A stretch of 64,000 nt of DNA, taken from the NCBI RefSeq assembly GCF_000024265.1, contig NC_013204.1, positions 2,856,501-2,920,500 on the forward strand, in the 5' to 3' direction. The stretch is from Eggerthella lenta DSM 2243 (GTDB taxonomy: Bacteria; Actinomycetota; Coriobacteriia; Coriobacteriales; Eggerthellaceae). Positions 8,028 to 13,177 of the stretch are shown in pieces; the first letter of the stretch is position 1, and each line of letters starts with the position of its first letter. The notes beneath the pieces were generated by a model. It had not been told where the DNA came from, did not search any database, and saw only the letters and a list, made by a program, of their open reading frames with translations. The position numbers were made by a program, and so were the translations under genes.

Positions 8028-8999
8028 CTAGCATGCCCCTTTCCCGTTGAACATGGCCGCAACAGTCTTCGCGACCACCTTGAGGTCAACCAGGAACGAC
8101 CTTTCCTCGATGTAGGCGAGGTCCATGTCCACCATCTCCTCGAAACCGGTGTCGCTGCGGCCCCGCACCTGCCAGTAGCCGGTGAGGCCGGGCTTGACCG
8201 ACAGGCGGCGCATGGCGCGCTCGTCGTACTGGGTGACTTCGGAGGGAAGCGGCGGCCTGGGGCCCACGCAGGAGAGCTGGCCCATGAGGCAGTTCAGGAA
8301 CTGCGGGAGCTCGTCTATGGAGTGCTTGCGGATAAAGCGGCCTATGCGCGTGACGCGCGGGTCGTCCTTGATCTTGAACAGCGGGCCGTCGGCCTCGTTG
8401 AGCTCTGCGAGCTCCGCCAGGCGCTCGTCGGCGTCCTTGTGCATGGAGCGGAACTTGTACATGTCGAAGGCGCGGACCTCGCCGCCCCTCCCGATGCGCC
8501 CGACGCGCTTCTGGGAGTAGATGGGGCAGCCTGGGCTCTCAACGCGGATGGCGATGCAGAGGACGATCGAGGGGACCAGCAGCACCGCTATCGCGCACAG
8601 CGAGAACGCGATGTCGAACGCCCTCTTCACGAAGCGGTAGCCCAACCGTCCTTCCGCCGGCGCAGGGACGGGCACGGGGCCCTCGGCCTCCGACACCAGC
8701 TCGGGCGCCAGGAACGCCACGTCGGAGGCGGCCATCGGCTCGGAGCCGTATGCGGTTCCCGCCGGCGCCGCGCGGGATCCTTCGACTCGCTTCGCTCGCT
8801 CGGGATGACAACCCGAGGAGTCGCTCCGCTCAGGACGGCATTCCCCGACCCTTGCGCTCGACTTTACATAACCGCGCTTATCAGACATTGGGGGCGTGGA
8901 AATCTCCTCTTGCTCCCCCGCCGTTGCGAAGTCGTCTACCAGCGCGACGGCTCCGTCGGCGGTTACGTCTATTGATTTGTCAGGGTTTCTTTCGAACAA
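8028..8999 (-). CDS. Undecaprenyl-phosphate sugar-1-phosphate transferase (priming enzyme)
   Basis: Residues about 118-323 are a PglC/WcaJ-type bacterial sugar transferase: a membrane helix after 'KRAFDIAFSLC', the catalytic region 'DMYKFRSMHKDAD', 'HSIDELPQFLNCLMGQLSCVG' (shown as the family does), 'GPRPPLP' and 'KPGLTGYWQVRGRS'. It should start EPS synthesis by loading a sugar phosphate on undecaprenyl phosphate. The start at 8999 is a TTG overlapping the nusG-like gene by 20 bases; the ribosome site is weak, and an ATG at 8887 is an alternative. The first 115 residues are poorly conserved, and residues about 53-75 are translated from a dispersed repeat. Confidence 0.9.
   Translation of the reverse strand: MFERNPDKSIDVTADGAVALVDDFATAGEQEEISTPPMSDKRGYVKSSARVGECRPERSDSSGCHPERAKRVEGSRAAPAGTAYGSEPMAASDVAFLAPELVSEAEGPVPVPAPAEGRLGYRFVKRAFDIAFSLCAIAVLLVPSIVLCIAIRVESPGCPIYSQKRVGRIGRGGEVRAFDMYKFRSMHKDADERLAELAELNEADGPLFKIKDDPRVTRIGRFIRKHSIDELPQFLNCLMGQLSCVGPRPPLPSEVTQYDERAMRRLSVKPGLTGYWQVRGRSDTGFEEMVDMDLAYIEERSFLVDLKVVAKTVAAMFNGKGAC
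8773..8840 (+). repeat. Dispersed HPERSEG-type repeat inside coding sequence
   Basis: Positions 8773-8810 read as the well-known palindromic element built from GGGATCCTTCGACTCGCTT and CGCTCGCTCGGGATGACA. A second, shorter unit (TCCGCTCAGGACGGC) follows. On the minus strand they are translated within the priming transferase as 'PERSDSSGCHPERAKRVEGS'. Similar text recurs in many bacterial genomes as a mobile intergenic palindrome. The element sits in the variable N-terminal segment, so it probably does not harm the enzyme. Confidence 0.75.
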
Positions 9000-9492
9000 T
9001 CTCTAATCCGACTTTGACGGTTTTCACACGACCAAGAATCTCTATCTCCAGATACGCCAGGCGCTTGTGGCGATCGAGCTTCTTGATGAGACCCGTCTGG
9101 TTCATCAGCGGGCCGTTGAGGATCACGATCTCGTCCCCTTCCATCACGCCGCTCGAGAACTCGACCACGCGGTGGTCAGGCTTGGTGAACGCGTTGATGA
9201 AGGCGACTTCTTGATCGTCGAGAGGAGTGAACACATCGTTGTTGCCGAGGAGCCTAGTGAACTTGGGGACGCTTCGCAACGCCTCACGCAGCTTTCCAGG
9301 CTGGTCTGTTATTACGAAAATATAACCAGGTAGCAGCACTTCTGAACGCATTTTCCATACGCCCTGGATGCGCTTTTTGACTTCGTACTGGGGGATGAAG
9401 GATTCTTGGATCAGCTCTTCGTCGACAAGCTTGTTGATCAGGTCAAGCACGTGCTTTTCCTGGCCGCCGACCGTTTGCACGACGTACCACAA
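8980..9492 (-). CDS. NusG-family antiterminator (LoaP-like paralogue)
   Basis: A protein of about 170 residues with an N-terminal NGN domain ('WYVVQTVGGQEKHVLDLI', 'EVLLPGYIFVITD') and a C-terminal KOW domain ('VILNGPLMNQTGLIKK', then 'DRHKRLAYLEIEILGR' and 'VKVGLEIV'). The RHKRLA and GLEIV elements match specialised paralogues such as LoaP rather than housekeeping NusG. Such proteins ride with RNA polymerase and suppress termination across long surface-polymer operons, fitting its position as first gene before the biosynthetic block. An AGGGAGGTG site is best spaced for the TTG at 9492; the GTG at 9501 and ATG at 9498 overlap or abut it. A long hairpin lies about 200 bases upstream. Confidence 0.85.
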   Translation of the reverse strand: MWYVVQTVGGQEKHVLDLINKLVDEELIQESFIPQYEVKKRIQGVWKMRSEVLLPGYIFVITDQPGKLREALRSVPKFTRLLGNNDVFTPLDDQEVAFINAFTKPDHRVVEFSSGVMEGDEIVILNGPLMNQTGLIKKLDRHKRLAYLEIEILGRVKTVKVGLEIVRKKP

Positions 9493-9690
9493 TGCCATCA
9501 CCTCCCTGGCAAGACGAAATAAAGATACGGCTTCGCCCTAGCCATTCAGGCCAAAACGCAACAACGATATGCATCCTCTTGATCGATCCGGAACGCGCAC
9601 CCAGCGACGATCCCGCTTTCCTCAAGATATGTATGCTGCCGTGTTTTTCACACATCGCCCTGTCGTATCCAGAGCTTGCAGCGGTGCAGT

Positions 9691-9737
9691 TTCCTGCCGT
9701 TAGATCACAGGTCGAACCTGTGGCCTAACGGCAGGAA
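9691..9737 (-). promoter_or_regulatory. Long near-perfect hairpin upstream of the nusG-like gene
   Basis: Arms TTCCTGCCGTTAG (9691-9703) and CTAACGGCAGGAA (9725-9737) pair perfectly. After a two-base mismatch, CACAGGT (9706-9712) pairs with ACCTGTG (9716-9722) around a 3-base loop, giving 20 paired positions. It lies 15 bases after the phosphatase stop on the minus strand. No T tract follows, so it does not look like an ordinary intrinsic terminator. It could be an RNA site for the NusG paralogue, an mRNA-end stabiliser or a weak terminator. Confidence 0.6.
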
Positions 9738-9752
9738 GCCGTCAAACCGAAC

Positions 9753-10406
9753 CTACAGACGCGCATGCGCTCCTCGCGTTCGGTACGTCCGCTTCGCTTC
9801 GGCGAAGTAGCCGTAGTGCTCCACCCGATGCGCATCGCTTGCGATGTACGCGTACAGGTTCTCGTCGAACAGGCGCTTGGCGGGCTTGCGCTCGGCTCCC
9901 ATGCGACCGCCGGCAATGAAATCGGCCGACGCTTGCAGCTTGCAACCCATCTTCACCAGACCGCGCGCCACCTCGACATCCTCCTGGATGGCGCGATAGC
10001 GCTCGGGATGAGCGATGATCACTTGGTAGCCCATCCCCTGCAGTTCGAAGATGGTCCGTTCGTATATCTCGAAGTCGGGCTTGCCCGCCCTCGTAGACAG
10101 CTCCAATAAAAACTCGTTCGTGCCGTCGAAGTGCAGATGCTCGGCCCATTCCATGCCCAATTGCATAAGCTTGGAATGGTTCACCTCGAAGCCCATCGTC
10201 AGCGGGAACCCGTCAGCGTGCGCCACGAGCAACTCGTAAGCATCCCACATCGCGTCGTAGTCGAAGTAGGGATCGCGCACATGCGGGGTACACACGATAG
10301 ACGTGATTCCCGCAGCCTTGGCAGCCTCCAGCATGGCCAGAGACTCGTCCAGGTTGCGCGCACCGTCGTCGACGCCGGGAAGGATATGGCAATGCAAATC
10401 CCTCAT
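9753..10406 (-). CDS. PHP-type tyrosine-protein phosphatase (CpsB/YwqE family)
   Basis: A 217-residue polymerase-and-histidinol-phosphatase fold enzyme. Metal ligands of the family are visible: 'DLHCHILPGVDDGARN' at the N-terminus, 'CTPHVRDPYF', 'GFEVNHSK', 'VIIAHPERYR' and 'YIASDAHR'. It dephosphorylates the C-terminal tyrosines of the partner BY-kinase, whose gene ends in a TGATG overlap with this start, so the pair should be translated together. In CpsB/CpsD systems the phosphorylation cycle sets polymer amount and length. The protein is slightly shorter than many family members (about 240-255). Confidence 0.93.
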   Translation of the reverse strand: MRDLHCHILPGVDDGARNLDESLAMLEAAKAAGITSIVCTPHVRDPYFDYDAMWDAYELLVAHADGFPLTMGFEVNHSKLMQLGMEWAEHLHFDGTNEFLLELSTRAGKPDFEIYERTIFELQGMGYQVIIAHPERYRAIQEDVEVARGLVKMGCKLQASADFIAGGRMGAERKPAKRLFDENLYAYIASDAHRVEHYGYFAEAKRTYRTRGAHARL

Positions 10407-11242
10407 CAGGCCCTACGCCCTCTTCCTGCCACGGGATCCTTAGCGAATCCGCCGCGACCGCCTGCAGGAACGGGGCTGCCCTGCGCACCGCGGGGCGCAC
10501 GACGCCCGGCCGTGGGAACCGGCGTGCGCGTCTCGGCCTGCAGCGCGGCAACATCGCCGTCGTCCTTCAACCGTCCGCCGTCCTTGGTATAGTACGCGTA
10601 ATAGTATTCGGAACCGGTGCCTTCGCAGAACGTGGCGCAGATGCCGAGGATGTTGGCATCTGCCTTCTTCAGCTGCTCGCACGCGTCCACCAGCTCGGAA
10701 CGCTTCGTCGAGCCGGGCTTGACCACCAACACCGTGCCGTCCACCAACGTGGACAGGATGGCGGCATCGACGAAGGTGCCGACCGGCGGCATGTCGTAAA
10801 TCACATAATCGTAGCTGTCCTCCAGCGTGGCAACCAGCTTCTGGTACCGCTTGGATGAGATGATGTCGGCCGGGTTGGGTATGTTCGGCTCGACGTCGAG
10901 GAAGAACAGGTTGGGAGTCTGCGTCGGCGTGACGGCCGTCTTGAGCGGTGCCGCATCGGTGAGGACGGCGTACACGCCCGCCGCAGGACGCACGTTCAGC
11001 AGGCTGGCAAGCGTGCGACGCCGCATGTCGGCCTCCACGAGCAGCACCGTCTTGCCCGACGTGGCAATAGCGCGAGCCAGCTCCACGGAGCACGTGGACT
11101 TGCCCTCGTTCGGCACCGAACTCGTCATGACGATGGAGCGGATGGGGTTGTCGGGCGACATGAAGCGGATGTTCGCAAAAAGCGTCTTCGCCGCGTTCTG
11201 CACCTCGAGCATGTTGGACGCCTGCTTCTTTTTCTTAGCCAT
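10406..11242 (-). CDS. BY-type tyrosine kinase (CpsD/CapB family)
   Basis: A 278-residue cytoplasmic BY-kinase. Walker A is 'SVPNEGKSTCSVELA' near residue 44, Walker A' is 'VLLVEADMRRR', and Walker B is 'YVIYDMPPVGTFVDA'. A tyrosine cluster 'SEYYYAYYTKDGG' lies near residue 210, unusually followed by about 60 proline/glycine/arginine-rich residues of low complexity; in most homologues the tyrosines are at the extreme C-terminus. The partner Wzz-like membrane activator is encoded 13 bases upstream. It starts at ATG 11242 behind GGAGGG. The kinase probably cycles between phosphorylated and free states with the PHP phosphatase. Confidence 0.93.
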   Translation of the reverse strand: MAKKKKQASNMLEVQNAAKTLFANIRFMSPDNPIRSIVMTSSVPNEGKSTCSVELARAIATSGKTVLLVEADMRRRTLASLLNVRPAAGVYAVLTDAAPLKTAVTPTQTPNLFFLDVEPNIPNPADIISSKRYQKLVATLEDSYDYVIYDMPPVGTFVDAAILSTLVDGTVLVVKPGSTKRSELVDACEQLKKADANILGICATFCEGTGSEYYYAYYTKDGGRLKDDGDVAALQAETRTPVPTAGRRAPRGAQGSPVPAGGRGGFAKDPVAGRGRRA

Positions 11243-11255
11243 GGCCTATACCCTC

Positions 11256-11915
11256 CTAACCCTTGATCGTGGGGATACGGCCGATGACCGGAATGCCCAG
11301 CAGTTCTTCAGCTTCTTCAGGGTTGCGCACCCGCGTGTTCAACATATCCAGCACCACCACGATGGCCACTGCCAGGAAGATGCCCGCGAGAAACGCGACC
11401 GCCGTGTACATGGCGCGCGGCGGGCCCGAGGGATCCGTGGGAACCTCGGCCGCGTCGACCACGTTGACGCTCTCGACGCCCATGACGCTTTGCGCGGTGG
11501 TGGACAGAACGGTGGATATCTCATTGGCGACGATGGCAGCCGCATCGGGCTTGCCCGCCGTCACCGAGATGCTGATGACGCGCGTGGTGGTGCCCGCTTC
11601 GACGGAAATCTTGTATCCGCTGAGCGAAGACATGCCAAGAGCCTCGGCCGTGCGCTTCTGCACGGTCTCCGACTTCGCCAAAGTCGCTATGTCGTTCGCC
11701 ATGAGCTGGCTGGCGGTGAGGTCGTTGTACGCGGTGGTGCTCGAAGAGCTCGCGTCGTCCTTCGCAGTCAGCACGTACACGGACACCGTGGCCGTGTACT
11801 GGTTCTGCATGAGACCCCAACTGAAGCCTGCCGTCGCGATCGCGAGCACGACGGGCAGCACCACCACCAGGGCCAGGTGCTTGCGCAGCAGTTTGAATAG
11901 TTCGAGCAGTGTCAT
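11256..11915 (-). CDS. Wzz/YveK-type polysaccharide co-polymerase (BY-kinase activator)
   Basis: 219 residues with two membrane segments: one near the N-terminus after 'LLELFKLLRKH', and one near 175-200 ('AMYTAVAFLAGIFLAVAIVVV'). An extracytoplasmic domain lies between. The short cytoplasmic tail 'EAEELLGIPVIGRIPTIKG' is the kinase-activating type found in CapA/YveK/CpsC proteins. It should set chain length and switch on the adjacent kinase. It lies 41 bases downstream of the LCP gene, in one apparent operon (LCP, Wzz, kinase, phosphatase). Confidence 0.9.
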   Translation of the reverse strand: MTLLELFKLLRKHLALVVVLPVVLAIATAGFSWGLMQNQYTATVSVYVLTAKDDASSSSTTAYNDLTASQLMANDIATLAKSETVQKRTAEALGMSSLSGYKISVEAGTTTRVISISVTAGKPDAAAIVANEISTVLSTTAQSVMGVESVNVVDAAEVPTDPSGPPRAMYTAVAFLAGIFLAVAIVVVLDMLNTRVRNPEEAEELLGIPVIGRIPTIKG

Positions 11916-11956: not shown

Positions 11957-13177
11957 TTACTTGCCGTTAACGGTGGTCTCGGCAGCTTCGGGATTCTCGC
12001 CGGCGTCGACCGCCTTCATCAGTGTAGCCCAACCCTCGGGATCCTCGTAGCACAGCCACAGGCCGCCGTATTCCTCCATGAAGTCGCCCTTGTACGGACC
12101 GGTGCACGTGTAGATGGTGGGGTTGCCCGCCTGTGCGAAATCGGTCGCAAGCGAGATCATCGTCTGCAAGTCGATGCTCGTAGACACGCACTGGGAGAGG
12201 TTTTGGATCAGGCCGGGGATCTCGACCGGAGGAGCTTGCAGCACGTTCTTCATGAGCGCCATGGCCATCGCACGCACGTTCGACTGGCGAATGGCCTCCT
12301 GGTCGTCGCCATAGGCGGTGCGCATGCGGGCAAGCGCCACGCACTGCTCGCCGTTGAGCAGCTGGTTGCCGGCCTCGATATGGACGGGCGCCTGATCCTG
12401 CGTGTACACCTGGTAGTCGATGGTGTAGGGCACGTCCACGTAGATGCCGCCGATCGAATCCACGAACTCGGCCAACCCGGCGAACTCGATTTCCACGTAG
12501 TCGGAGATCTTCACGCCGGTGAGGTCCTGCACCGCCGTAACGGCGCCAGCCGCCCCGTTCACGGCGAACATCTGGTTGATCTTCTCGACCTTGCCGTTGT
12601 ACTCGTACGGCGTGTCGCGCGGAACCGACACCATGGTGATGACGTGGCCCACCGGATCGATGCGCACGAGCACGAGGGCGTCGGAGCGCTCCCCGTACGT
12701 CTCCCAGTTGTCCGAGCCCACCAGCAGCACGTAGAACGGCTCCATCTGGGAATCGGAGGGGGCGAGAACGCTGCTCAACTCGCTTTGCTCCTGAGCGTCG
12801 AGCGCCATGTTGCTTGCGAGGCTGCTCGTGTACCAAGCGCCGTACGCGGCGACGCCGCCCACGAGCACCACGACGACGGCGAGCGCGATAAGCGCCGCCC
12901 GCTTCAGCTTGGTGTGCTTCTTGCGCTTCTTGCGCACGCGCACGATCTCGTCAGCTTGCGAAGCGTAGCCGTAGTTCGCCGGTCGCTGGTTTGGATACGG
13001 CGTCTGCCCCGTCGGGCGCGAAGCGTACCCACCGCCCTGCGGATAAGGCCGGCTGCCATGGGGAGCCTGACCGAAACCGTCCGCAGGAGGTTGCCCATAG
13101 GCGTGAGAACCTCCGCGCGAAGCGGAGGCACCATGGCGACCCGAAGCCGTCTGTCTGTTGTTGTCGTCGAATCCCAT
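11957..13177 (-). CDS. LytR-CpsA-Psr family glycopolymer ligase
   Basis: 406 residues. The first 100 are a glycine/tyrosine/proline-rich cytoplasmic segment ending in a basic patch ('VRKKRKKHTKLKR'), followed by one membrane helix (about 100-120) and an extracellular LCP domain. LCP motifs include 'VLLVGSDNW', 'RSDALVLVRIDP', 'SVPRDTPYEY', 'KINQMFAVNG', and 'GEQCVALARMRTAYGDDQEAI', where the Arg/Asp residues bind the polyprenyl pyrophosphate. LCP enzymes move the finished glycopolymer from its lipid to peptidoglycan, so this is the probable EPS ligase. An AGGAA lies 14 bases before ATG 13177, a loose spacing. A 14-base C/G tract lies 144 bases upstream. Confidence 0.92.
   Translation of the reverse strand: MGFDDNNRQTASGRHGASASRGGSHAYGQPPADGFGQAPHGSRPYPQGGGYASRPTGQTPYPNQRPANYGYASQADEIVRVRKKRKKHTKLKRAALIALAVVVVLVGGVAAYGAWYTSSLASNMALDAQEQSELSSVLAPSDSQMEPFYVLLVGSDNWETYGERSDALVLVRIDPVGHVITMVSVPRDTPYEYNGKVEKINQMFAVNGAAGAVTAVQDLTGVKISDYVEIEFAGLAEFVDSIGGIYVDVPYTIDYQVYTQDQAPVHIEAGNQLLNGEQCVALARMRTAYGDDQEAIRQSNVRAMAMALMKNVLQAPPVEIPGLIQNLSQCVSTSIDLQTMISLATDFAQAGNPTIYTCTGPYKGDFMEEYGGLWLCYEDPEGWATLMKAVDAGENPEAAETTVNGK

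Follow-up and report, generated by a model that had tools for sequence, protein, structure and literature searches.

What does a NusG paralogue do in the middle of a capsule locus of Eggerthella lenta DSM 2243, and which signal in its leader would it read? We analyzed a stretch of 64,000 nucleotides (hereafter the window; bases 2,856,501-2,920,500 of the closed 3,632,260-bp genome), in which a regulatory quartet of the LCP, Wzz, CpsD and CpsB families lies 5′ of the paralogue on the same strand. Genes for a polyprenyl sugar phosphotransferase, WecG, WecB and more polysaccharide functions follow 3′ of it, again on the same strand. The genes on which the argument turns are these, in the order of transcription:

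11957-13177, minus strand: LCP-family transferase gene (PF03816, 105.7 bits).
11256-11915, minus strand: Wzz-type chain-length determinant gene (PF02706, 34.2 bits; cut-off 25.5).
10406-11242, minus strand: cpsD-type tyrosine autokinase gene (TIGR01007, 155.4 bits; cut-off 108.05).
9753-10406, minus strand: cpsB/capC-type phosphatase gene, the last of the quartet (PF19567, 136.7 bits).
8980-9501, minus strand: loaP, the gene of a LoaP-class NusG paralogue.
8028-8999, minus strand: first EPS gene, encoding the polyprenyl sugar phosphotransferase (PF02397, 203.2 bits).

The product of the reading frame at 8980-9501 reached 166.6 bits against the curated NCBI model NF033641 (antiterm_LoaP; cut-off 125), which bears out the proposal, made from the sequence alone, that a LoaP-class gene heads an EPS block in an actinobacterium. 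It also contains the NusG N-terminal domain (PF02357, 56.1 bits), and the score for a KOW domain was just below the threshold (PF00467, 20.2 against 22.3 bits). Among PDB sequences, the best match was 8f5g_A. The models for RfaH (TIGR01955, 35.2 against 144.5 bits), for UpxY (NF033644, 59.1 against 100 bits) and for the housekeeping NusG all remained below their cut-offs on this product. The true start is probably the TTG codon at 9490-9492, which aligns with the ATG-TGG of relatives. The same-strand polysaccharide genes downstream agree with the linkage of LoaP to long biosynthetic operons. A search for promoter-like sites on the minus strand from 9347 to 10804 gave none, and we therefore place the loaP leader inside a longer message. 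Three genes in the genome exceed the LoaP cut-off; a fourth, at 124.4 bits, is the tandem neighbor of one of these, and an additional lower-scoring copy is probably the housekeeping gene.

Between cpsB and the capsule block, we distinguished the following elements:

9687-9741, minus strand: E1, a long hairpin with core arms at 9691-9712 and 9716-9737, then a basal C-A mismatch and three more pairs.
9566-9632, minus strand: E2, the proposed LoaP-loading RNA of 67 nt, backed by covariance model R1 (90.5 bits), by covariation and by its own minimum-energy fold.
9604-9611, minus strand: ATCGTCGC, an 8-mer on the 5′ side of helix P2 of E2.
9530-9537, minus strand: the GGCGAAGC box, which resembles ops in its position and, in part, in its sequence.
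8867-8882, minus strand: the 16-bp inversion site GATAAGCGCGGTTATG, with three exact copies in the genome and the junction described in PMC13174815.

The sequence-only reading had pointed to a near-perfect hairpin of 20 pairs without a U-tract between the quartet and loaP, and E1 is that hairpin: its core has 22-nt arms that are 91% complementary and form 20 pairs around a 3-nt loop. The extended form (9687-9741) has a folding energy of −37.1 kcal/mol (z = −8.44), and 0 of 200 shuffled sequences were equally stable. E1 begins 11-15 nt past the cpsB stop codon at 9753-9755 (11 nt in the extended form) and about 190 nt upstream of loaP. It was ruled out as an intrinsic terminator, as AACTGCACCGCTGC rather than a U-tract follows the 3′ arm, and as a dispersed repeat, as a genome search with the leader as the query found, besides the query, no more than part of another loaP leader and a single 21-bp match at chance level. 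A UNCG loop (UUCG) for the window hairpin was not kept either; close relatives read UCCG or CCCG.

The 3′ strand of E1 is part of the conserved GCAGGAAACTGC, and in relatives the arms vary freely while the 3′ strand retains GCRGGAAACYGC. We compared 30 distinct leaders, after rows with N or identical segments had been dropped; in two of them (L048 and L065) the 85-nt segment lacks a long hairpin, and one (L058) pairs differently. When 3′ strands were set against foreign 5′ regions (26 leaders, then 14 once similar arms were removed), the own partner was the best in 9 of the 14 dissimilar leaders, with mean energies of −32.8 kcal/mol for own and −21.3 kcal/mol for swapped partners. With 8-nt arms, at least 7 pairs formed in 20 of 25 own arms versus 38% of swapped ones, a moderately strong result and less clear than that of the duplex comparison. 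A lack of covariation had been named beforehand as refuting the proposal for this hairpin, and the hairpin passed the test: exchange of the 5′ arms for those of other leaders weakens the pairing considerably. In five leaders of the Olsenella/Atopobiaceae type (L158, L160, L166, L168 and L174), E1 is replaced by a long hairpin with the conserved 3′ flank GGAGGCTC.

E2 lies between E1 and loaP and has 19 pairs and two bulged uridines. Its outer helix P1 pairs 9622-9631 with 9572-9582 (CAU-A-UCUUGA with UCAAGA-GG-AUG), and its inner helix P2 occupies 9589-9615 (CGGGA-U-CG-U-CGC-loop-GCG-CG-UUCCG), contains both bulged uridines and is closed in the window by the loop UGGGU. The E2 of the window folds alone into the model structure as its minimum-energy fold, with an unremarkable energy (z = −1.54). 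Loci of relatives, 29 plus 40 stretches, were taken for only the better of the matches listed, and the phmmer table has 108 domain rows, 96 after repeats were removed. For the covariance model, 36 of the 96 leaders were chosen by pattern and aligned, and 14 of these 36 served as its seeds. In the alignment of 56 E2 matches (40 distinct rows, seeds included and fitted to the model), 94.4% of the cells are paired and 13 of the 19 pairs have changed on both sides; none of 500 shuffles was as good, and slid structures pair at 33-56%. A second set of 54 rows, 51 of them distinct and weak matches included, gave 93.0% paired cells and 14 of 19 pairs changed on both sides; here, 3 of 500 shuffles reached the pair count and 0 of 500 the other measures. 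Neither the window nor any of six related loci contained a match that reached the gathering score of an Rfam 15 family, and the best weak match (E = 0.44) was to a microRNA model.

E2 is linked to loaP. Over the genome, the model scored 90.5, 51.5 and 49.2 bits, with the next score at 22.4, and each of the three over-cut-off loaP genes has one strong E2 upstream, so that E2 accompanies loaP in three different neighborhoods of one genome. Among 246 genomes of the class, we found 57 matches in 38 genomes. Fifty-three of the 57 precede a same-strand LoaP gene by 28-248 nt; the remaining four comprise one before a LoaP fragment, one at a contig end and two weak partial matches. LoaP is present in 35 of the 38 E2-positive genomes versus 81 of the 246 overall (Fisher p about 1e-16, with related genomes being non-independent). 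In 36 loci around E2 matches, a LoaP-like frame occurred at the 32 strong ones (one of them a fragment) and at none of the four weak matches of the own genome. Under the stricter filters in use, 46 of the 81 LoaP-carrying genomes gave no E2 match; therefore, other leaders rely on a different signal or on a variant that the model cannot reach. Across the phylum, E2 appeared in only eight of 296 sampled genomes, all from Coriobacteriales. At L018:6676-7967, E1 and E2 lie between the members of a tandem loaP-like pair that is followed by a sugar transferase, and such pairs were seen again in several relatives.

We then extended the comparison to one genome per species with LoaP proteins, which gave 80 loci, 43 from Coriobacteriia and 36 from Bacillota; L210, whose upstream sequence is missing, was dropped from the motif and core-box counts. 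Within 420 nt before loaP, the 8-mers found most often were ATCGTCGC (63 of 79 leaders) and GGCGAAGC (61 of 79), and in downstream control stretches of equal length the latter was found in 2 of 73. A core related to E2, AUCGUCGC, recurs in the LoaP leaders of both Coriobacteriia and Bacillota. Matches to the E2 model are mostly high-scoring in Coriobacteriia; in Bacillota there are some weak ones, in the same place and on the same strand, with the core AAUCGUCGC-NNNG-YCGCGUU. In both phyla, the core precedes the box at a median distance of 66 nt (26 of 43 coriobacterial and 31 of 36 Bacillota leaders). The related core contains UUCG or AUCG in some Bacillota leaders, and a scan for UNCG stem-loops with at least 4 pairs, of little informative value, found them in 6 of the 36 Bacillota leaders. 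We do not claim the consensus of an RNA polymerase pause for the box, because many coriobacterial boxes fit it and those of Bacillota do not. Apart from a tandem-repeat study (PMC3818501), none of the papers available contained "GGCGAAGC" together with "NusG".

These counts bear on the proposal that E1 is the RNA recognized by LoaP, with E2 as an accessory. E1 is strongly conserved, covaries, has the conserved 3′ strand and sits in the loaP leader. However, ten orphan loaP leaders of the L001 type lack E1, and one of these belongs to an over-cut-off loaP gene of the E. lenta genome. The E1 motif occurs in 15 of the 80 loci and in 0 of the 36 Bacillota leaders, which retain the E2-like core and the box. 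The E1 loop is not conserved. A LoaP site in E1, as originally read from the sequence, is thus quite improbable, and E1 was dropped as the first choice because it is missing from the orphan and Bacillota leaders. The expected conservation of the hairpin before other loaP-like genes held in relatives, where the arms covary, and failed in the ten orphan and the 36 Bacillota leaders. By this comparison, E2 is probably the better candidate for the RNA read by LoaP, because it is common to the three loaP leaders of the genome, to other coriobacterial leaders and, as the related core, to those of Bacillota.

The conservation of the box, which equals that of the RNA core, raises another reading, namely that LoaP is recruited in the manner of RfaH by non-template DNA, through a mini-hairpin of GGCGAAGC, and that E2 acts through folding or another factor. 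RfaH with its ops/JUMPstart element is likewise a NusG paralogue for capsule and LPS operons that uses a short conserved DNA box in the leader, where a mini-hairpin is possible, and the non-template strand of ops is described as forming a small hairpin (PMC5995543). The GC-GAA-GC of the box can form a tiny ops-like hairpin (the ops stem is C3:G8; PMC5995543), and 18 of 30 coriobacterial boxes have TG at positions 11-12, as ops does. However, Bacillota boxes carry this TG in only 2 of 31 cases, the copy in the window has TA at its end, and the binding of single-stranded DNA by Bacillus velezensis LoaP is described as nonspecific and of low affinity (PMC12691694). The window box GGCGAAGCCGTA is identical by eye to ops GGCGGTAGCGTG at 7 of 12 positions and does not count as an ops element. 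The protein itself falls below the RfaH model TIGR01955, the box has GGCGAAGC in place of the ops sequence GGCGGTAGCGTG, and the E. lenta leader, in contrast to that of RfaH, also conserves a structured RNA. We therefore judge recruitment by DNA to be unlikely, and we retain E2 as the favored candidate for the LoaP-loading RNA.

A relation of E2 to terminators was seen in the orphan-type leaders. In eleven of these (L001, L024, L025, L028, L030, L031, L033, L034, L049, L051 and L066), which include the own-genome loaP at 2,252,011, the 3′ strand of helix P1 in E2 overlaps with the 5′ arm of an intrinsic terminator that stands just before loaP; the uninterrupted terminator pairing is shorter in L024 and L034. 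For the L001 leader, the fold of lowest energy is the terminator, and E2 is disrupted in it. This overlap has the design of an attenuator that something, most simply LoaP, would have to hold open. The same competition would be expected if E2 were a riboswitch-like element, or the target of another protein, that controls loaP without loading LoaP. We give this reading little credence, as E2 is tied to loaP across three neighborhoods in one genome and LoaP proteins, on the published account (PMC12691694), bind a leader hairpin. In the window leader, an intrinsic terminator comparable to those of the orphan leaders was not found; the sole candidate, at 9527-9545, is unconvincing and came from a scan that gave 9 sites versus 12.9 in shuffles. 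A scan of the EPS block for terminators likewise showed no excess.

The leader also stands beside a site of genome rearrangement. In E. lenta DSM 2243, two capsule inversions of 2.06 Mb and 32.5 kb (SV1 and SV2) with a 16-bp junction are reported, together with changed CPS expression (PMC13174815). We located exact copies of this 16-mer at 806,530 (plus strand), 2,832,809 (plus strand) and 2,865,367 (minus strand) of the genome; the copy in the window is 2.06 Mb and 32.6 kb from the other two, in agreement with the published sizes (PMC13174815). The window copy lies 97 nt past the end of loaP, inside the 5′ part of the sugar-transferase frame. The 5′ head of the first EPS gene (8883-8999) is on the loaP side and forms part of the cassette, and the frame runs across the junction from this head into DKRGYV. 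The other two copies have a sugar-transferase body in the same frame, without loaP and without the head. The similarity among the three sites begins exactly at the 16-mer (90% over 719 bp to one copy, 82% over 294 bp to the other). Because it continues past the 16-mer, recombination between homologous genes would be a possible route to the inversions, and a dedicated recombinase need not be assumed. Within the sugar-transferase frame, a palindromic repeat-like 31-mer, CTTCGACTCGCTTCGCTCGCTCGGGATGACA, occurs at 8780-8810, with one copy in the window.

All four Eggerthella genomes compared contain the exact 16-mer, with one copy after loaP in each. In L223, the loaP cassette is joined at the 16-mer to a thymidylate-kinase frame that is continuous with the head, and in L224 to a nucleotidyl-transferase/epimerase pair, as a fixed cassette with exchangeable blocks predicts. 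In Paraeggerthella (L219; G007:C53:87843-87858), a copy with one mismatch is present about 140 nt past loaP, and the site may thus be older than the genus Eggerthella. Upstream of the two silent sites, by 57 and 40 bp, stands a 17-bp palindrome, GGGGTCANNNTGACCCC, that occurs at only two places in the genome, 806456-806472 (L215) and 2832752-2832768 (L216). Similar palindromes precede the silent sites in three other Eggerthella genomes; an insulator, a regulator site and a recombination accessory site are possible roles.

Would the inversions, then, do more than exchange promoters? The cassette brings upstream genes and presumably their promoter, which the silent sites lack, so capsule switching could be a plain promoter swap to which LoaP and its leader add little. 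Against this stand the minus-strand interval 9347-10804, which yielded no promoter-like site and keeps the leader within a longer message, and the make-up of the cassette, which at the junction in four Eggerthella genomes includes loaP and the E2 leader. We regard a plain swap as rather unlikely. As the junction lies 97 nt past loaP, the quartet, E1, E2, loaP and the head can be read as a fixed cassette that would feed whichever capsule block is joined to it.

Overall, we consider it probable that E2 loads LoaP, that LoaP both regulates its own synthesis and antiterminates, and that the capsule block joined at the inversion site is fused to the antiterminated message. The putative cassette would comprise LCP-Wzz-CpsD-CpsB, E1, E2, the GGCGAAGC box, loaP as the last complete gene and the head of the first EPS gene. 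A polymerase arriving from the quartet would leave E1 folding behind cpsB and E2 folding next. The nascent E2 RNA would capture LoaP made from the same cassette, and near the GGCGAAGC box LoaP would pass onto the RNA polymerase. The LoaP-bound polymerase would then cross the leader, loaP itself and the EPS genes that follow, passing the terminators and pauses in the leader and in the EPS genes. Because LoaP would aid read-through of both, the expression of loaP and that of the EPS genes would reinforce each other. The 16-bp site would determine the capsule block that is joined, and blocks beginning with a sugar transferase would be fused in frame. Should transcription stop in the leader, E1 would most likely mark the 3′ end of the quartet message and protect it. 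The signals themselves are supported by the comparison of leaders; capture, loading, read-through and feedback are inferred by analogy with B. velezensis LoaP.

In B. velezensis, LoaP is described as binding a leader hairpin that it requires, and as antagonizing NusA-dependent termination; a pause between the hairpin and the terminator is said to help its action (PMC12691694). On the published description, the dfn/mln systems resemble our leaders in having a LoaP-class NusG paralogue, a leader RNA hairpin before a long biosynthetic block, and a pause and terminator in the leader. In E. lenta, by contrast, the conserved RNA precedes loaP itself, in mid-operon; the leader additionally has a long 5′ hairpin, the GGCGAAGC box and, within E2, the outer helix; the E2 loop is UGGGU where the dfn hairpin has UNCG; and the product of the block is a polysaccharide. 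The report on SV1 and SV2 (PMC13174815) concerns the same genome, the same 16-bp site and loaP; beyond its available account, we place the junction in the first gene after the loaP leader cassette and find the same site in three further Eggerthella genomes. Its authors propose opposing LoaP and LuxR-like regulators rather than a cassette, and in the main text of that report the terms hairpin, in-frame and palindrome were not found. A search of the available titles and abstract openings, mostly outside subscription journals, on LoaP and on structured RNAs of Coriobacteria revealed no description of E1, E2 or the box.

More tentatively, we speculate that LoaP uses a two-part loading signal, a AUCGUCGC RNA hairpin followed by an ops-like GGCGAAGC box, that has been kept across two phyla. 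In Eggerthella, this loader might serve as the fixed read-head of a switch worked by megabase inversion, in which the capsule would be chosen by the joined block and not by a promoter. Two short, strongly conserved signals in the LoaP leaders of two phyla are open to direct test. Moreover, the cassette would provide a simple answer to a question that PMC13174815, in its available text, leaves open, namely, why an inversion of half the genome alters capsule expression and phage sensitivity.
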